A stretch of 55,929 nucleotides of DNA from Deltaproteobacteria bacterium. GTDB lineage: Bacteria; Myxococcota_A; UBA796; UBA9615. The notes below the pieces were generated by a model. It was not told the origin of the DNA. It saw only the letters and a program-made list of their open reading frames with translations, and did no database searches. Made by a program: the position numbers and the translations under genes. Location: assembly GCA_023954745.1 (NCBI GenBank), contig JAGSHC010000010.1:1-55929 (forward strand). The letters are read 5' to 3'. This document shows, piece by piece, positions 11,027-23,563 of this stretch; within the stretch, counting starts at the first letter, position 1; each line of letters begins with the position of its first letter.

Positions 11027-11046
11027 GAGCCCGTACGGGCTCCTAG
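11023..11046. terminator. 24-bp perfect palindrome holding both convergent stop codons
   Basis: Arms CTAGGAGCCC (11023-11032) and GGGCTCCTAG (11037-11046) flank GTAC, giving a perfect 24-bp palindrome. The TAG of the M23 gene (11024-11026) lies in one arm and the TAG of the minus-strand cupin gene (11043-11045) in the other. The transcript hairpin would be strong on both strands, so a shared bidirectional terminator is likely, although no T-run follows. Confidence 0.7.
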
Positions 11047-11408
11047 AGCTTCGGTAGCTCCGCTCGGGTGAGCTCGCCGGCTTCGTTTGCCCCGGTGTTC
11101 ACTGTGCTGGCGGGCTCGAAGAGGACGACCTCGCACTCCTCCGGGGCCACGGGCTTGTGCTCGACGCCGCGAGGGACGACCACGAACTCCCCGGTGCGCA
11201 CCGTCACCATCCGGTCGCGGTAGTGCATGTCGAAGGAGCCCTTCGCCACCAGGAACATCTCGTCCTCGTGCTCGTGGTGATGCCACTCGAACTCCCCGAG
11301 CAGCTTCACGACCTTGACGTGCTGCCCGTTGAGCTCGGCGACGATGGCGGGAGACCAGTGGGCGTCGACCTGAGCCAGCTTGTCGGCGAGGTTTATGGGG
11401 GCGGTCAC
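11043..11408 (-). CDS. cupin-domain protein coupled to formate dehydrogenase alpha
   Basis: A 121-residue single-domain cupin. The first motif is W-H-H-H-E-H-E-D-E at about residues 42-50, which supplies the His/Glu metal ligands; the second is the P-R-G-V-E-H region near 80-86. Small cupins of this kind bind one divalent metal; the reaction is unknown. The start is GTG at 11408, sharing one base with the TAG stop of the formate dehydrogenase gene (TAGTG), so translation is almost certainly coupled. That suggests a role tied to formate dehydrogenase or C1 metabolism, but this is inferred from linkage only. Confidence 0.85.
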   Translation of the reverse strand: MTAPINLADKLAQVDAHWSPAIVAELNGQHVKVVKLLGEFEWHHHEHEDEMFLVAKGSFDMHYRDRMVTVRTGEFVVVPRGVEHKPVAPEECEVVLFEPASTVNTGANEAGELTRAELPKL

Positions 11409-14119
11409 TAGACCGGCGCCACCTTCACTGCGCAGACCTTGTACTCCCCCGTGCCCGTGACGCTGTCGCCCGCGTCGTTGGTCAGGTAGTTCGTCAGCGA
11501 GTCGGGGAAGTGCAGCGGCATCCACACGCAGCCGTACCGCATGCGCGGGGAGACGTTCACCACCGCCTCGATGGCGCCTCGGCGTGAGGTGACGCGGACC
11601 CGTTGGCCGTCACTGAGCCCGCGACGCTTGGCGTCCTTGCGGTGCATCTCGATGAAGTTCTCGGGCTGCTTCGCCATGGCGCCGCTCGCCCGCAGGGTCT
11701 GGGTGGCGCAGTTGTAGTGATACAGCGTGCGCCCCGTGCTGAGCAGCAGCGGGTAGTCGTCGTCGGGCAGCTCCGCGCTGGGTCGGTAGAAGACCGGCTG
11801 GAAGTGGCCCTTGTCCGTGGGCAGGCCGTCCTGATGCAGGGTGGGCGTGCCTGGGTGGTCCGGGGTGGTGCATGGCCACTGCAGGCCGCCCTCGGCGTCG
11901 ATGCGGTCGTGACTGATGCCCGTGAACTTGTCCGTCAGGGCTGCCATCTCGGCGTAGACAGCATCTGGGCCCGCGTAGTGCGGCATGGGGTAGCCGCAGG
12001 CGCGGGCGAGGTCGCACACGATCTCCCAGTCGGCGCGGGCCTCTCCGGGAGGGCTCACGGCCTTGCGGACACGCTGCACGCGGCGGTCGGAGTTGGTGAA
12101 CACCCCGTCCTTCTCGGCGAAGCAGGCGGCAGGGAGGATGACGTCGGCGAAGCGGGCCGTCTCGTTCAGGAAGATGTCCTGCACGACGAGGAACTCGCAC
12201 TGGTTGAGACCCAGCTCGACCTGGCTGGCGTTGGGCTCGCTGAGGACGATGTCCTCGCCCATGACGTACAGCCCCTTGATGCCGCCCTTGGGGAGCTGCT
12301 TCATCATCACGTTGAGGTTCATGCCGTCGTCGGGCGACAGCGGAACCCCCCACGCCTGCTCGAAACGCTCCCGGGCCGCAGGGTCGGACACGCGCTGGTA
12401 GCCGGGATAGAAGACCGGGCTCGCGCCGGCGTCGTTGGCGCCCTGCACGTTGTTCTGGCCACGCAGCGGGTTCATGCCGGAGCTGCGCTTGCCCAGGTGC
12501 CCCGTCATCAGCACGAGGTTGGCCAGGGAGTACACGTTGTCGGTGCCGTGGGTGTGCTCGGTGATGCCCAGGGTGTAGTAGATGCCGGCCTTGTCGGTGG
12601 TGGCGTACATGCGCGCCGCCTCGCGGATCAGGTCCGCCGGCACCGTCGTGATGCTCTCGCCCCACTCGGGGGTGGCGTCCTTGACCGCCTCAGCGAGGGT
12701 GTCGAAGTCCTTGGTGTGCTTGGCGATGAAGGCGTGGTCGACGAGGTCCTCGTCGATGATCACGTGGGCCATGGCCGTCAGCAGGGCCACGTCCGTGCCC
12801 GGCTTGAGCTGCATGTAGACGTCAGCGACGTCGGCGAGCCAGATGCGGCGCGGGTCCGCGACGATGAGCTTGCTGCCGTTCTTCTTCGCCCGCTTCATCT
12901 CCATCGCGATGATGGGATGCGCCTCCGTCGTGTTGGAGCCAATGACGAACATGAGCTCGGTGTCCCGGATCTCCGGAATCGAGTTCGTCATGGCGCCTGC
13001 GCCGAACATGGTCACCAGACCGGCGACCGTAGGAGCGTGTCAGGTCGCGGCGCATTGATGGCAGTTGTTCGTGCCGAAGGCGGCGCGACTGAGCTTCTGG
13101 ACGAGGTAGTTCTCCTCGCCCGTGCAGCGGCTGCTGCTCACGAAGCCCAGGGCGTCGGCGCCGTGTCGGTCGCGCACCCCCATCAAGCCCTTCGCGGCGT
13201 ACTCGATGGCCTCGTCCCAGGACGCGGGCTCGAGCACGCCGTCGCGGCGAATCATCGGCGTGGTCAGCCGATCCTCGTGGTGGATGAACTCGTAGGAGAA
13301 CCGGCCCTTGATGCACAGGTTCCCGTCGTTGAGCGTCGTCCCCGGCTCGGGAGACGTGATGCGCACGACCTGGTCGTCGGCCACGTGCAGGTCGAGCTGG
13401 CAGCCCACGCCGCAGAAGTTGCATGTGGAACGTACGACCTTCTCGGGCTCCGGCGCCTTCAGCGACGGCTTCTCGGTCATCGCGCCGGTGGGGCAGGTGT
13501 CGATGCAGCCGCCGCACATCTCGCAGGTGGAGTCGAGCAGGCCGATCTGGTCGGCGGTGGCGATGGTGGTCTTCGCGCCGCGGCCCGCCAGGGTGATGGC
13601 GGAGACGGCTTCGACCTCGTCGCAGTAGCGCACGCAGCGGGCGCAGGCGATGCAGGCCTCGGGGTCGAAGTGGATGTAGGGGTTGTTGTCCTCGCGGCCT
13701 TCGCGCGGGGTTCCGATGTGGGTCAGCTCGGGACCGGTGCCGTGCTTGAGGACGAGGTCCAGCAGCTCGTTGCCCACCCCGCGCTGCTGCGGCAGCTTCG
13801 TGGCCTCGTCGATGGCGTGGTCGGCCATGTACATGGAGAGCAGCGTCTGACGGTGCCGCTCGATGCGGTCCGACTCGGTGGTGACGTCCATGCCGTCGGT
13901 GACGTGCCATGCGCAGGCGGGCTGGAGTCGCCGCTGGCCCTCAATCTCCACCAGGCACATGCGGCACGAGCCCATGGGGTCGAGGCGCGGGTCGTGGCAG
14001 AGGGTCGGGACGTCGGCCCCAGCGCGGGCCGCCACGTGAATGAGGAGCTCGCCGGGCGCGGCGTCCACCTCGGTGCCGTTCACCGTGACAATCACGGTGT
14101 TCTGGGTCTTCGCATTCAA
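11408..14119 (-). CDS. fdhA: selenocysteine-containing formate dehydrogenase, alpha subunit
   Basis: A single frame of 904 codons interrupted only by TGA at 13040-13042 (residue 360), read here as selenocysteine. The context is C-A-A-T-U-H-A-P-T-V-A-G, matching the active-site C/U-H-x-P/S-x-V-A-G of formate dehydrogenases; a SECIS hairpin follows. Domains in order: NuoG-like [2Fe-2S] domain (C-x11-C-x2-C in the P-T-L-C-H-D region), His-ligated cluster segment, two [4Fe-4S] motifs (C-I-A-C-A-R-C and C-E-M-C-G-G-C), the molybdopterin-domain cluster (C-N-F-C-G-V-G-C), the Mo/W-bis-pterin body and a C-terminal dinucleotide-binding domain. It oxidises formate (or reduces CO2) and passes electrons to the NuoEF-type beta subunit at 15966-17474. 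The start is uncertain: TTG at 14119 is my choice; the frame is open to 14224. The cupin gene overlaps its stop. Confidence 0.93.
13010..13028 (-). promoter_or_regulatory. bacterial SECIS hairpin after the fdhA UGA codon
   Basis: On the minus strand, 11 bases after the UGA, the seven-base arm GGTCGCC (13028-13022) pairs with GGTGACC (13016-13010): six Watson-Crick pairs and one G-U. The loop is GGTCT (13021-13017). From established knowledge, the E. coli fdhF SECIS has the same GGUCU apical loop and the same 11-base spacing, and its loop binds SelB. This supports decoding of 13040-13042 as selenocysteine rather than a stop or a sequencing error. Confidence 0.9.
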
Positions 14120-14316
14120 GGTGGATCGAGCGTACTCGATCAATGGAGAGGTGGGGGCCCGATGGCGTCTGGTGCGGGATTCACGACAAAGCTGCGCGAA
14201 TGCAGTTTCGGCCTGCAAACACACCGCAAAATGCCGCGATTACGCCGCGTAGTGTTCTGTCATCGGAACGCGGCGCCCACGGGAACGGGAGCCGGTTCCA
14301 CAACGGAGACACCACC

Positions 14317-14736
14317 ATGAACAGCACTCTCGGACGCATTCTTCTCGGCCTGCCCGGTCTCTTCATCGCACTCTCGGGTCTGATGTTCCTGCTGAACCCC
14401 GGTGGCGGCGCCGCCAAGCTCCTGTTGACCCCCGAAGGAGCCGAGGGGCTCTCGAATCTGCGCGGCTTCACCGGAGCGTCGGTGTTCGCGGTGGGCGCGG
14501 GCATCATCATCGGCGCAGTGACCAGGAACCTCGCCAACGCGCGCCCTGGCGCCATCTTCGTGCTCGTCCTCATCGGCGCGCGGGTGCTCTCCTACTTCGT
14601 CGACGGTCCCAACCCCAACGTGGGCCTCTACATCGCGATTCCGTCCGTGGCCTTCGCGTTCATGGTCGCGGGGCACAAGCTCATCGAGCGTGACCACACC
14701 GCCGGCGCACGGGCGGGCCAGGCCGTCAGCGCCTGA
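14317..14736 (+). CDS. DUF4345-like small polytopic membrane protein
   Basis: A 139-residue protein with four hydrophobic segments (about residues 7-27, 48-68, 74-92 and 100-118). Length, the N-L-R-G-F-T-G-A-S segment and the overall layout resemble DUF4345-type membrane proteins, whose function is unknown. The ATG at 14317 follows a GGAG element; an upstream frame to 14143 has no membrane character. It starts about 200 bases from formate dehydrogenase alpha on the opposite strand, so the two promoters must share that intergenic segment. Confidence 0.7.
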   Translation: MNSTLGRILLGLPGLFIALSGLMFLLNPGGGAAKLLLTPEGAEGLSNLRGFTGASVFAVGAGIIIGAVTRNLANARPGAIFVLVLIGARVLSYFVDGPNPNVGLYIAIPSVAFAFMVAGHKLIERDHTAGARAGQAVSA

Positions 14737-14879
14737 GCGCTCTGCCCGCCGTGGTGCGCCGACGGCCGGACACGCTCCGACGAGCAGGGCCAGGAGAACG
14801 AGAAGGTCGGTCTGGACACGCATGGCCGGTGCCCAGGGGCGTTGTGGAGAGCGCGGGGGGTGGTGGGTATCCTGCCTCG

Positions 14880-15803
14880 ATGCCTCTTCTCCTCCGGCTG
14901 CTCGCCCCGACCACAGTCGGCTCCCTCATCGCCCTCTCCGGTGGCTGCATCACGACGCTGCCCCTCCCTGACGGCTTCAACCCGGCGGAGGCCACCGAGT
15001 TCGCCGAGCTCGCAGTGAGCGCCTACGACATGCGGGCCACCCTCCAGGCGGGGGACGACTGGCTCGGCCCCGATGGGTACGCCATGCACGGGGTACACAC
15101 GACGGAGCAGAACTGGAACGACCTCTCGGACGAGCCCGAGACGGTGCCGGTGGCCTGGCTCGGGTCCCGAGACGAGACCGTGTTTGTCGTCTTCCGCGGG
15201 ACCTCCACGAGCACGGAGGCGCTGCTCGATCTGGACATCACCCAGGTGGACTTCCCCCTGCTCTCGGGCGACGGCGGTGGGACCCACGAGGGCTTCACTG
15301 AGCGCTACGTCGAGCTGCATCCGGGGCTGCGCGCGGACATCGATGGCCTGCTCCAGACCGGCGACTTCGCCAGGCTGGCCTTCACTGGGCACTCCTTGGG
15401 GGGGAGCATCGCGACCCTGGCCGCTGCGACCTTCGCCGACGAGGGCGAACTGCCGGTCCTCGTGTACAGCTTCGCCTCACCCCGGACCGGCGATCGGGAC
15501 TTCGCGGCCCGATACAACGGGCTCGTGGACCAGAGCTGGCGGGTCACGAACCCGCGGGACCTCGTGCCAGGCTTCCCCGAGGAGAGCCCCGACGGACTCA
15601 CGGGCAACGCCGAGCAGCTGTTCTACGAGCACGTCGAGGTGCGGACCGACCTTCCCTTCGACGACGCGAACGGCAGGGTCGAGACCGACCTCGGCGTCGG
15701 CGCCAACCACAGCTCGTGCCGCTATCTGCGCGAGACCTGCGAGCTCGCCGAGTCCGACGAGGTCTGCGCCGCGGTGGTGGCGGACCACGTCTCCTGTCAG
15801 TGA
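14880..15803 (+). CDS. class 3 lipase-like alpha/beta hydrolase, probable lipoprotein
   Basis: A 307-residue exported hydrolase. The nucleophile elbow G-H-S-L-G-G puts Ser172 at the active site; Asp227 (N-P-R-D-L-V-P) and His277 (A-N-H-S-S-C) complete a plausible triad. R-G-T-S-T at 106-110 and T-H-E-G-F near 135 match the Lipase_3 fold. The N-terminus is a hydrophobic leader ending in S-G-G-C, a weak lipobox with Cys23. It lacks the Asp-repeat linker of other lipoproteins here. Probably a triacylglycerol or phospholipid esterase at the cell envelope. It sits between the two formate dehydrogenase subunit genes on the opposite strand. Confidence 0.88.
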   Translation: MPLLLRLLAPTTVGSLIALSGGCITTLPLPDGFNPAEATEFAELAVSAYDMRATLQAGDDWLGPDGYAMHGVHTTEQNWNDLSDEPETVPVAWLGSRDETVFVVFRGTSTSTEALLDLDITQVDFPLLSGDGGGTHEGFTERYVELHPGLRADIDGLLQTGDFARLAFTGHSLGGSIATLAAATFADEGELPVLVYSFASPRTGDRDFAARYNGLVDQSWRVTNPRDLVPGFPEESPDGLTGNAEQLFYEHVEVRTDLPFDDANGRVETDLGVGANHSSCRYLRETCELAESDEVCAAVVADHVSCQ

Positions 15804-15965: not shown

Positions 15966-17474
15966 CTATCCCCCGAACTCTTTCGGAAAGTGCTTCATCG
16001 CCGTCGTGAGCGGCCAACTCGCCACCTGCCCAAGCCCGCAGATGCTGCCCTCCTCCATCTCCCACGCGACATCCTCGGTGTGAGACAGCGCGTCCGCGTC
16101 CCCGTCGATGAAGCGCTCCAGCGCTTGCCGCTGGACCTTGCATCCCACGCGGCAGGGAGTGCACTGCCCGCAGCTCTCGTCCTCGAAGAAGATCAAGCCC
16201 CACAGGGCCGCCTTCGTCATGGGGATGGTGTCGTTGAGCACCACGAGGCCGCTACTCCCCATCATCGAACCGGCCGCCTGCAGCGACTTGAAGTCCAAGG
16301 GGGTGTCCCGGAACGACATGGGCAAGAAGCCCGCGCTCGCCCCTCCGGGCGAGAAGGCGATGGGCGTGCCGACATAACCCCCAGCAGCCTCGACGAGCTC
16401 ATCGAGTGTCACCCCCAAGGGAAGCTCGTACACCCCGGGGTTCTGGATGTGGCCCGAGATGGAGAACAGCTTGCTGCCCGCTTCGGTCTTGCCCTGGGCC
16501 TTGAACCACTCCCCGCCGCGCAGAACGATGGACGGCACGCACGCCAGGGTCTCCACGTTGTTCATCAGGGTCGGCTGACCGAAGAGCCCCACCTGCGTGG
16601 GGTAGGGCGGCTTGAGCCGTGGCATGCCGCGCTTGCCCTCCAGGGCTTCGAGGAGGGCCGTCTCCTCCCCGCAGATGTAGGCGCCGTGGCCTTCGACGAT
16701 GCGCACGTCGAGCCAGGACGACAGGGTCTCCCCCGCCTCCTCCAACGCCCGCTCCATGGACTGCTTCGCTTCCTGGTACTCGCCGCGAACGTAGATGTAG
16801 GCGACATCCGCGCCGGCCACCTTGGCCGCGATTGCCATGCCCTCCAGCATCAGGTGGGGGCGACGCTCCATGACCATGCGGTCCTTGAAGGTGCCGGGCT
16901 CGCTCTCGTCCGCATTGACGACGACGTACTTCGTGGGCGACGTCTCGCGCCGCACCGCGCCCCACTTGAAGCCAGCGGGGAATCCGGCGCCACCGCGGCC
17001 TTGCAGGCCTGACGCGTTGATGGCCGCGAGGACGGCGTCCACACCCACCTCCTCCAGCTTGGCGAGGGCGGCGTAGTCCGCAGAGTCGCGCCCGGCCAGG
17101 TTCATGGGGAGTTCGGGGTCGTTCGGCGTGAGCTCTCCGGGAGGTGCGATGGAGATCGGCAGCAGCTTCTCGTCCACCGCCGCCGGGGCTCGGTCGCACT
17201 GGCCCAGGCAGCTCACCTGCTCGTGCTTGACCCCTCGGGCCTCCAGGTCCGCGACGAGGTCATCGCTGCCCTTCATCTTGCAGGTCAGGCCCTGGCACAC
17301 CCGCACTCCGGCGTCGGGTCGGGAGACCAGGGTGTAGAAGGTGGCGACGCCGTAGACGTCCGCGGCGGGAACGCCGGTCTCTCGGGAGATCTGCTCGGCC
17401 ACGCCAGGCTTGAGGCCGCCGTGATGCTCCAGGAGCTCGAGGACCCTGCTCCGCTGTGCGCCTGTTTTCTCCAT
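15966..17474 (-). CDS. fdhB: formate dehydrogenase beta subunit (NuoE-NuoF fusion)
   Basis: A 502-residue NADH-dehydrogenase-type subunit. Residues 1-140 are NuoE-like with the [2Fe-2S] Cys set C60-x4-C65 and C89-x3-C93. Residues 150-500 are NuoF-like: the NAD/FMN-binding G-R-G-G-A-G-F-P segment, G-A-Y-I-C-G-E-E-T-A, and the [4Fe-4S] motif E-S-C-G-Q-C-T-P-C with the distal C in G-S-I-C-G. It takes electrons from the alpha subunit and passes them through FMN to NAD+. The fused form is known from two-subunit NAD-dependent formate dehydrogenases such as Methylobacterium FDH1. The start ATG is at 17474; the upstream frame to 17711 is antisense to the lipoprotein Asp repeats and is not coding. Two unrelated genes separate it from fdhA. 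Confidence 0.93.
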   Translation of the reverse strand: MEKTGAQRSRVLELLEHHGGLKPGVAEQISRETGVPAADVYGVATFYTLVSRPDAGVRVCQGLTCKMKGSDDLVADLEARGVKHEQVSCLGQCDRAPAAVDEKLLPISIAPPGELTPNDPELPMNLAGRDSADYAALAKLEEVGVDAVLAAINASGLQGRGGAGFPAGFKWGAVRRETSPTKYVVVNADESEPGTFKDRMVMERRPHLMLEGMAIAAKVAGADVAYIYVRGEYQEAKQSMERALEEAGETLSSWLDVRIVEGHGAYICGEETALLEALEGKRGMPRLKPPYPTQVGLFGQPTLMNNVETLACVPSIVLRGGEWFKAQGKTEAGSKLFSISGHIQNPGVYELPLGVTLDELVEAAGGYVGTPIAFSPGGASAGFLPMSFRDTPLDFKSLQAAGSMMGSSGLVVLNDTIPMTKAALWGLIFFEDESCGQCTPCRVGCKVQRQALERFIDGDADALSHTEDVAWEMEEGSICGLGQVASWPLTTAMKHFPKEFGG

Positions 17475-17513
17475 GAAACGAGAGTATCCCAGCGCGCCAG
17501 CTACGGTCTCAGC

Positions 17514-18158
17514 ATGAAGAATCTCGCTCTGTGGGTCGCCCTCCTGGTCTGTGTCGGCTGTCCAACAACCCCGTCGAACGACGACGACGTAGCGAACGAC
17601 GACGACGCAGCGAACGACGACGACTCGGCGAACGACGACGATGCAGCGAACGACGACGACTCGGCCGACCAGCGCACCGAGACGCGCGTCTTCGTCAGTT
17701 CCACCAAACACGACGGGGCCCTGGGAGGTCTCGTGGGCGGGGATGCCGTCTGTCAGGGGTTGGCTGATGCCGAGGACCTCGGTGGGACCTGGATGGCCTG
17801 GCTCGGTGATGGAACCGACGGCCCCGCGACTCGCTTCGTGGTCTCCGAGCGTCCCTATGTCCGGGTGGGTGGCGGCGTCGTCGCCGAGAACTTCGCCGAC
17901 CTCATCGACGGAACCATCGCCGTGCCCCTCAACCAGGACGAGACCGGCAGCCCTCTTCCATCAGACGACGACATGATCGTGTGGACGGCGGTGTTCCACA
18001 CGGGCGGAGAGCCCACCCCCGTGAACTGCTCCGGCTGGACGGCTGCCGAGCCGACCCTCGTGCCGACGGGCCTCGCGACCGCTACGGACACAGGATGGAC
18101 GGTGACCGCGCCCTACAACTGCGATGAGCTGCATCGGTTCTATTGCTTCGAGCAGTAG
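17514..18158 (+). CDS. DUF1554-type lipoprotein with Asp-repeat linker
   Basis: A 214-residue lipoprotein. The signal peptide ends C-V-G-C (Cys16), then C-P-T-T-P-S and five N-D-D-D-x-A units as an acidic tether. The body, from about residue 55, begins V-F-V-S-S-T and continues G-G-L-V-G-G-D-A-V-C-Q-G-L-A, then W-M-A-W-L-G-D: the pattern of the DUF1554 fold seen in surface lipoproteins of Leptospira and other bacteria. Cys in D-A-V-C, N-C-S-G-W, Y-N-C-D and F-Y-C-F probably form disulfides. Function is unknown. It is divergent from formate dehydrogenase beta, with 39 bases between the starts. Confidence 0.85.
   Translation: MKNLALWVALLVCVGCPTTPSNDDDVANDDDAANDDDSANDDDAANDDDSADQRTETRVFVSSTKHDGALGGLVGGDAVCQGLADAEDLGGTWMAWLGDGTDGPATRFVVSERPYVRVGGGVVAENFADLIDGTIAVPLNQDETGSPLPSDDDMIVWTAVFHTGGEPTPVNCSGWTAAEPTLVPTGLATATDTGWTVTAPYNCDELHRFYCFEQ
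17577..17666 (+). repeat. 18-bp tandem repeat encoding the N-D-D-D-x-A linker
   Basis: Five 18-bp units (AACGACGACGAC followed by two variable codons) lie within the lipoprotein gene. The fifth and sixth codons alternate among V-A, A-A and S-A. The units are nearly identical, so slippage or recent expansion is likely. Confidence 0.9.
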
Positions 18159-21967: not shown

Positions 21968-23563
21968 GTGAGCTTCCCTGTCGACGACCCGCGGGCGTTC
22001 GTCGCGGCCTACGAGTCCACGCTCCGCCCCATGCGGCAGCGCCACGGCGATGTGTACTGGCGGTTCGCACTGTCGGGAGACACCGCGCACCAGGCCGAGC
22101 TGGAGACCATCGAGGGCGAGATGTCCCAGCTGCATGCTGACGAAGCGGCCTACGGGGCCCTCGACCGATGGGCGGCCCAGGGCACCGACGATGCGCTGCT
22201 CGCCCGGCAGATCGCCCTGCTGCTCCCGGAGTTTCGCCGCGGACAGGCCCCCGAGGCGCTGCGGTTGCGCATCATCAAGCTCGGCTTGGAGACGGAGGAG
22301 ACCTTCACCACGTTCCGCCCGGTCGTGGGCGGCCGCCGCATGGCGTCCAACGAGATGGACCGGGAGCTGCTCGTCAGCAACTCGGACGCTCGGCGCCGCG
22401 AGGTGTGGGAGGCCACGAGGGCCATCGGTCGCCACGCGAGAGGGTCCGTCGTCGAGCTCGCGCAACTGCGCAACGAGGTAGCCAGCTTCCTGGGGTACTC
22501 CGACTACTTCACCATGGAGCTCGCGGATCAGGAGATGGAGCCCGAGGAGCTGTTCGGTGTGCTCGACGACCTGCGTCGTGACACGGACGGCCCCTGGGCG
22601 CGCCACAAGGCCGAGCTGGACGCGGAGATGGCGGAGGCGCGGGGCAAGCGTGCCGAAGACCTGATGCCCTGGGACTACACCGACCGCTTCTTGCAGTCGG
22701 TGCCTCGGCGGGACCCGGGACGTGGAACCGACGCGTGGTTCCCTCTGGCCGCCATCAAGAAGAACACCCACGGCTTCTTTCGGGGGGTGGGTCTGCCCGT
22801 CGAGAGACTGTGGCGCGCCGCGGACCTGCTGCCTCGGGATGGCAAGAGCCCGCACGCCTTCTGCATCGGCATCGACAACCCAGGCGACGTCAGGGTGCTC
22901 TGCAACCTCGACTCGACGGCTCGGTGGATGGAGACGACGCTGCACGAGTTCGGCCACGCGGTCTACAACGCGGGGATCGACGACGGGCTCCCGTGGCTGC
23001 TGCGTGACGCAGCCCACACCTTCATCACCGAGGCCGTGGCGATGTTCTTCGGGCGCATGGTCAAGACCGCCCCGTGGCTGCGCGAGGTGGCTGGGGTCCC
23101 CCATGAGCTCGCGGCGAAGGCTCAGGAAGACCTGCGCGAAGCCCAGCTCGTGTTCGCGCGGTGGGCGCTGCTCGTGACCTACTTCGAGCGCGCGATGTAC
23201 GCCGACCCGACCCAGGACCTGGAGTCACGGTGGTGGGAGTTGGCGAGCCGGCTCCAGGGCCTCACGCGACCGCCGGGATGGGACGGGCCCGACTGGGCCA
23301 GCAAGGTGCATGTCGCCTGCTACCCCGCCTACTACCAGAACTACCTCCTGGGGGAGCTCCTGGCGTCGCAGTTCCAGGCCGCTCTGGTGCAACGCACCGG
23401 GCAGGACATGGCCGACCCGTCTTTCGTGGGGCGGAAGGAAGTCGGAGACTTCTTCGGGGGCTTGTTTGCGGCAGGGCAGCGCCAGCGATGGGACGACACG
23501 GTCGTGGCTCACACCGGACAGGCCTTGACGTCGCGTCACTGGGTCCAACAGTTCGCGAGCTAG
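21968..23563 (+). CDS. M2-like (ACE-type) zinc metallopeptidase
   Basis: A 531-residue helical metallopeptidase. The zinc motif H-E-F-G-H is at 326-330 and the third ligand Glu355 lies in F-I-T-E-A-V, the H-E-x-x-H ... E-A arrangement of gluzincins such as peptidase families M2 and M3. Length and the helical N-terminal half fit M2. No signal peptide is seen, so it may act in the cytosol, unlike its two exported neighbours. The start is GTG at 21968, directly after the TAG of the pseudo-HtrA gene, with no gap. Probably an oligopeptidase that acts on short peptides. Confidence 0.85.
   Translation: MSFPVDDPRAFVAAYESTLRPMRQRHGDVYWRFALSGDTAHQAELETIEGEMSQLHADEAAYGALDRWAAQGTDDALLARQIALLLPEFRRGQAPEALRLRIIKLGLETEETFTTFRPVVGGRRMASNEMDRELLVSNSDARRREVWEATRAIGRHARGSVVELAQLRNEVASFLGYSDYFTMELADQEMEPEELFGVLDDLRRDTDGPWARHKAELDAEMAEARGKRAEDLMPWDYTDRFLQSVPRRDPGRGTDAWFPLAAIKKNTHGFFRGVGLPVERLWRAADLLPRDGKSPHAFCIGIDNPGDVRVLCNLDSTARWMETTLHEFGHAVYNAGIDDGLPWLLRDAAHTFITEAVAMFFGRMVKTAPWLREVAGVPHELAAKAQEDLREAQLVFARWALLVTYFERAMYADPTQDLESRWWELASRLQGLTRPPGWDGPDWASKVHVACYPAYYQNYLLGELLASQFQAALVQRTGQDMADPSFVGRKEVGDFFGGLFAAGQRQRWDDTVVAHTGQALTSRHWVQQFAS

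Follow-up and report, generated by a model that had tools for sequence, protein, structure and literature searches.

The formate dehydrogenase gene fdhA of a deltaproteobacterial genome carries an in-frame UGA that is almost certainly decoded as selenocysteine (Sec) in an FdsA-like soluble enzyme, with the hairpin behind the codon serving as its SECIS element. The gene occupies positions 11408 to 14119, on the minus strand, of the window, by which we mean the whole 55,929-nt stretch of contig JAGSHC010000010.1 that was analysed. This reading is based on a single UGA, its conservation in relatives, a following hairpin with synonymous constraint, the presence of the Sec machinery and of FdhD in the same genome, and a nearby gene for a partner subunit. 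A Sec formate dehydrogenase had been proposed in a preliminary description of the DNA, an interpretation that our results support.

Translated with TGA read as U, the minus-strand frame from 14224 to 11408 contains one internal TGA, at 13040-13042, and terminates with a TAG (11408-11410), confirming the claim that this codon alone breaks the frame (the strand had not been stated). The start list and the G+C content by codon position place the start of fdhA at TTG 14119 or a neighbouring GTG (14095, 14083). That is, positions 14120-14224 lack a coding pattern (0.57/0.63/0.60 for codon positions 1/2/3), which fits a start at or just downstream of TTG 14119. Counted from this TTG, the UGA is codon 360, as originally numbered. 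The product scores 812.6 bits against the formate dehydrogenase alpha model TIGR01591 (cut-off, 666.25), which places it in that family, and contains the Pfam domains Fer2_4, Fer4_Nqo3, Molybdop_Fe4S4, Molybdopterin, and Molydop_binding. According to Pfam and NCBIfam, its N-terminal part contains NuoG-type 2Fe-2S and Fe-S domains.

Under translation table 11, the gene indeed falls into two ORFs, one on either side of the TGA (13040-14224, 394 aa; 11408-13015, 535 aa), just as had been predicted for a standard gene caller. Taken at face value, these ORFs would make the UGA a true stop in a split or truncated gene pair, a reading that we regard as extremely unlikely. G+C contents at the three codon positions are similar before (0.65/0.48/0.94) and after (0.64/0.45/0.94) the TGA, which argues for a single coding frame running through it, and one frame is likewise conserved in the relatives. 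Moreover, the first start codon past the TGA is a GTG at 13015-13013, 24 bases on, a position inside the conserved domain and at the same time in the hairpin's 3′ arm.

The UGA falls on the active-site column of the family, as the preliminary description had held: it aligns with a Cys in FdsA of R. capsulatus, and U was found at this column in 24/24 distinct close loci, the window included (the others being 61 to 75% identical to it). Among the carriers of the Sec gene are Plesiocystis pacifica, two strains of Enhygromyxa salina, and metagenome-assembled genomes labelled Deltaproteobacteria, Myxococcota, Planctomycetota, Mariniblastus, and Verrucomicrobia. U also occupies the column in six shorter FdhF-like loci, while Cys does so in 10 more distant loci of the same taxonomic class (40 to 42% identity). 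In one close locus (L048), the BLAST reading has a second TGA upstream of the conserved part, where the genome search gives one TGA.

Within the 58 genomes searched, 28 gave a formate dehydrogenase match at 1e-100: nine with the Sec gene of the window (whose own genome is one of the nine), six with the shorter Sec FdhF-like gene, 12 with a stop-free match, and one with a fragment that stops short of the column. Cys could be read in 10 of the 12 stop-free cases; in the other two, the motif was not found by pattern. The counts leave out four loci that are sequence-identical to others (L049-L052), the distant loci L041-L046 (L041 lacking the motif, L042-L046 having no ORF match at 1e-15), L066 and L073, where the pattern found no motif, and the fragment L074. 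The shorter FdhF-like enzymes of six genomes (L067-L072) share the motif CNRTUHAPSVVG and have GGTCT at the same offset from the UGA.

The existence of Cys homologues at 40 to 42% identity in the same class gives some room to the idea that a sequencing or assembly mistake turned TGC or TGT into TGA and that the enzyme is a Cys formate dehydrogenase. However, the TGA recurs at the identical column in 23 further distinct loci, those of cultured strains from two genera, Plesiocystis and Enhygromyxa, among them, and the hairpin is missing from the Cys homologues. We therefore consider such an error exceedingly improbable. The same recurrence argues against a split gene.

The hairpin begins 11 nt past the UGA (13010 to 13028, minus strand) and consists of a 7-bp stem closing a GGUCU loop (GGUCGCC-GGUCU-GGUGACC), precisely as first noted. 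Its predicted energy is −12.4 kcal/mol, and equally good folds occurred in 3/200 shuffles; the 51 nt starting at the TGA were not more stable than their own shuffles (z = 0.15). A match to Rfam SECIS_3 (RF01989) spans 12987 to 13045 on the minus strand, scoring 39.2 bits (E = 2.9e-6), below the gathering score of 63.

Comparison across loci was more informative. The 24 distinct loci, the window among them, together have 168 stem pairs, of which 154 are standard. Synonymous redraws, in which codons were drawn anew from each gene's own usage and related rows were treated as independent, gave a mean of 128.4 standard pairs (sd, 4.0), with a maximum of 143 in 2,000 redraws. Summed over the same loci, the hairpin energy was −244 kcal/mol, as against −156 kcal/mol (sd, 11) in 300 redraws. 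Synonymous codon choices thus appear to preserve the stem across the 24 loci. For the window gene alone, all seven pairs formed in 11% of the synonymous redraws, and its energy was attained in 1.3%. The glycine codon in the loop is GGT in 22/24 loci, in genes where GGT makes up a mean of 13% of glycine codons; two relatives (L030, L034) have a GGGCU loop instead of GGUCU. In the ten Cys homologues, only 31 of 70 stem pairs are retained, and most of these sequences are unable to form the stem.

Individual stem positions vary. Pair 1 is non-standard in 14/24 loci; at pair 4, 15 loci have C-G and nine have G-C. The valine codons that contribute pair 4 are GTC with GTG in 14 loci and GTG with GTC in nine, and one locus has GTC opposite GCG. 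On the protein tree, two changes are needed on each side of this pair, and both sides switch together in two independent comparisons. These two coincident switches, too few for significance in an independence test of the C-G/G-C exchange, agree with pairing.

If the UGA is read as Sec, the genome should encode the corresponding machinery, and this expectation was borne out. Because control genomes also gave weak signals in several of the machinery searches, a match was counted only if it exceeded the cut-off. In the genome from which the window derives (7.13 Mb, 481 contigs), a tRNA-Sec scored 75.5 bits (cut-off, 47) and was also called as tRNA-SeC by ARAGORN, with anticodon tca. SelA (471 bits) and SelB (303.7 bits, with SelB-wing_2 and wing_3) exceeded their cut-offs, as did two SelD proteins and FdhD (234.5 bits). 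The absence of SelB or tRNA-Sec had been named beforehand as grounds for rejecting a Sec enzyme, and both are present. SelA was found in 15/15 genomes with a Sec formate dehydrogenase of any type, and the 7/58 genomes lacking a SelA match contained no Sec formate dehydrogenase at 1e-100; this co-occurrence is weak evidence, since SelA was matched in 51/58 genomes of the class.

The two SelD genes differ in kind. One, on contig C52 (L018:1477-2532), has an in-frame TGA in the motif QCAGUASK, and this SelD is apparently a selenoprotein itself. The other, on contig C322 (L019:1414-3606), is fused to a pyridine nucleotide-disulphide oxidoreductase domain and has no internal TGA.

DNA alone cannot name the residue inserted at the UGA, which leaves a third reading, namely readthrough with another amino acid by suppression or under a variant code. 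We judge this very unlikely: the Sec machinery, tRNA-Sec included, is present, a hairpin follows the UGA, and the position is that of the UGA codon in E. coli fdhF and of Cys in FdsA. Sequencing error, a split gene, and readthrough other than with Sec were all rejected, on account of the TGA in the relatives, the continuous frame, and the Sec machinery.

Upstream of fdhA, also on the minus strand, lies a gene (15966 to 17711) whose 581-aa product joins NuoE- and NuoF-like domains in one protein, with thioredoxin-like 2Fe-2S, FMN-binding 51K, SLBB, and 4Fe-4S domains (Pfam, NCBIfam). A nuoEF homologue sits directly upstream of fdhA in 20/23 of the other distinct Sec-fdhA loci, several of which are cut by contig ends. 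The fused protein is likely the partner subunit of FdhA, and its gene suggests a linkage to NAD(P). In the window, plus-strand ORFs at 14143-15803 separate nuoEF from fdhA, which are adjacent in most relatives; one of these ORFs encodes a class 3 lipase (14751 to 15803; Pfam Lipase_3). At the other end of fdhA, a minus-strand gene (11043 to 11408) encodes a 121-aa cupin protein (Pfam Cupin_2, detected on the longer ORF 11043-11525), and its GTG start shares one base with the fdhA stop. Neither the lipase nor the cupin gene had a tblastn match at 1e-8 in the flanks of relatives that were examined.

Taken together, these features suggest how the enzyme might be made and work. The hairpin would act as a SECIS element that recruits SelB, so that SelB, tRNA-Sec, SelA, and SelD decode UGA 13040-13042 as Sec in the molybdopterin-binding alpha subunit of a soluble formate dehydrogenase, an FdsA-like protein with NuoG-like N-terminal Fe-S domains. 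As a ligand of molybdenum or tungsten, the selenium would be involved in oxidizing formate or reducing CO2, and the Fe-S clusters would relay electrons to the fused NuoE-NuoF subunit, from which they would reach NAD(P). Within this scheme, Sec insertion itself, the identity of the metal, complex formation with NuoEF, and the nature of the electron acceptor are inferred. In annotation, fdhA should be treated as a single gene for a selenoprotein of about 900 residues instead of two fragments, and the organism should be counted with the Sec-decoding bacteria.

Outside the window, contig C52 holds a further in-frame TGA upstream of its Sec-type selD, in a lipoprotein-like gene with an FGE-sulfatase domain (PF03781, E = 8.4e-35; L075:2075-2986, corresponding to 22574-23485 of the contig). 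The TGA lies in FDWG-U-VGIRCC, part of a W-G-U-[VI]-G-[IM]-R-C-C motif about twelve codons ahead of the stop. All three homologues with more than 50% identity (51 to 76%), which belong to the same taxonomic family, share this UGA and have exactly one TGA each; the copy of G005 is partial. The coding sequence of the domain runs on past the UGA in 4/4 copies, and a nitroreductase-family gene follows in 4/4. At E 1e-30, 71 genomes of the class yielded no FGE copies beyond these four, that of the window genome included. Seven more distant matches (34 to 39% identity) have no stop, and in the three where the column is readable, Ser or Gly, not Cys, precedes the V/M-G motif.

The sequence GTGCTGC starts 11 nt past the UGA in each of the four copies and may form the 5′ arm of a predicted hairpin; the same nucleotides encode the conserved R-C-C, so their conservation is not independent evidence. 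The predicted folds vary in detail among the copies, and none has a GGUCU loop. The neighbourhood with selD was seen in the window genome only, no selD being found in the stretches of G001, G004, and G005 examined, which are short contigs. The inventory table of selenoproteins in a 2026 review (PMC13188914) has no FGE family, and our literature searches brought up nothing relevant by title and abstract. Judging by sequence, the genome probably uses Sec in this FGE-sulfatase domain protein not listed as a selenoprotein, which we offer as a lead, not as proof. If true, Sec near the C terminus of an FGE-like domain would define a new selenoprotein family, a finding that might outweigh that of fdhA.

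Returning to fdhA, alignment with the formate dehydrogenase families confirmed a Cys or Sec column at the UGA and showed the closest solved relative by sequence to be of the soluble FdsA type, not FdhF. Like the window gene, E. coli K-12 fdhF (NC_000913; FdhF structure 1aa6) has its UGA at a U-H-x-P motif, with GGUCU at the same offset. The enzyme itself is shorter, its 715-residue chain aligning to residues 263-938 and lacking the N-terminal NuoG-like extension. The proposed likeness of the two SECIS elements holds for the loop and its spacing, and less well for the stem: where the window has base pair 4, the fdhF stem carries an unpaired U with a role of its own.

FdsA of R. capsulatus (6tg9), from a soluble formate dehydrogenase, aligns over FdhA residues 43-936 with 783 bits and has the same layout, from the N-terminal 2Fe-2S to the molybdopterin-binding domains. 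It differs in having an active-site Cys where the window gene has Sec, and so does not require a SECIS. FdsG and FdsB are separate subunits of the R. capsulatus enzyme, and this separation belongs to the definition of FdsABG, the soluble NAD-dependent formate dehydrogenase. The window enzyme resembles FdsABG in its NuoG-like Fe-S domains at the N terminus and in having a NuoF-like partner, but its NuoE- and NuoF-like domains are fused; we therefore term it FdsA-like and not FdsABG.

In the collection of papers that we searched, none came up for selenocysteine and formate dehydrogenase together with Myxococcota or Enhygromyxa. The nearest published counterpart comes from the planctomycete P1, for which the passages of a 2016 paper dealing with this operon (PMC4807772) describe an operon of a Sec fdhA and nuoEF that is conserved in Plesiocystis pacifica as well and that, according to the authors' phylogeny, was horizontally transferred between the two lineages. 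The operon described there for P1 and P. pacifica SIR-1 resembles the window in that a Sec formate dehydrogenase alpha gene adjoins NuoEF genes, and the P. pacifica fdhA is 72% identical to the window copy, with U at the same column. In contrast to the operon as presented in those passages, the window has plus-strand ORFs between nuoEF and fdhA and a cupin gene after fdhA. The Sec fdhA of the window is thus an addition to an already published fdhA-nuoEF type, the kind itself being known, and the group gains loci from additional assemblies that carry myxobacterial, planctomycete, and verrucomicrobial labels.
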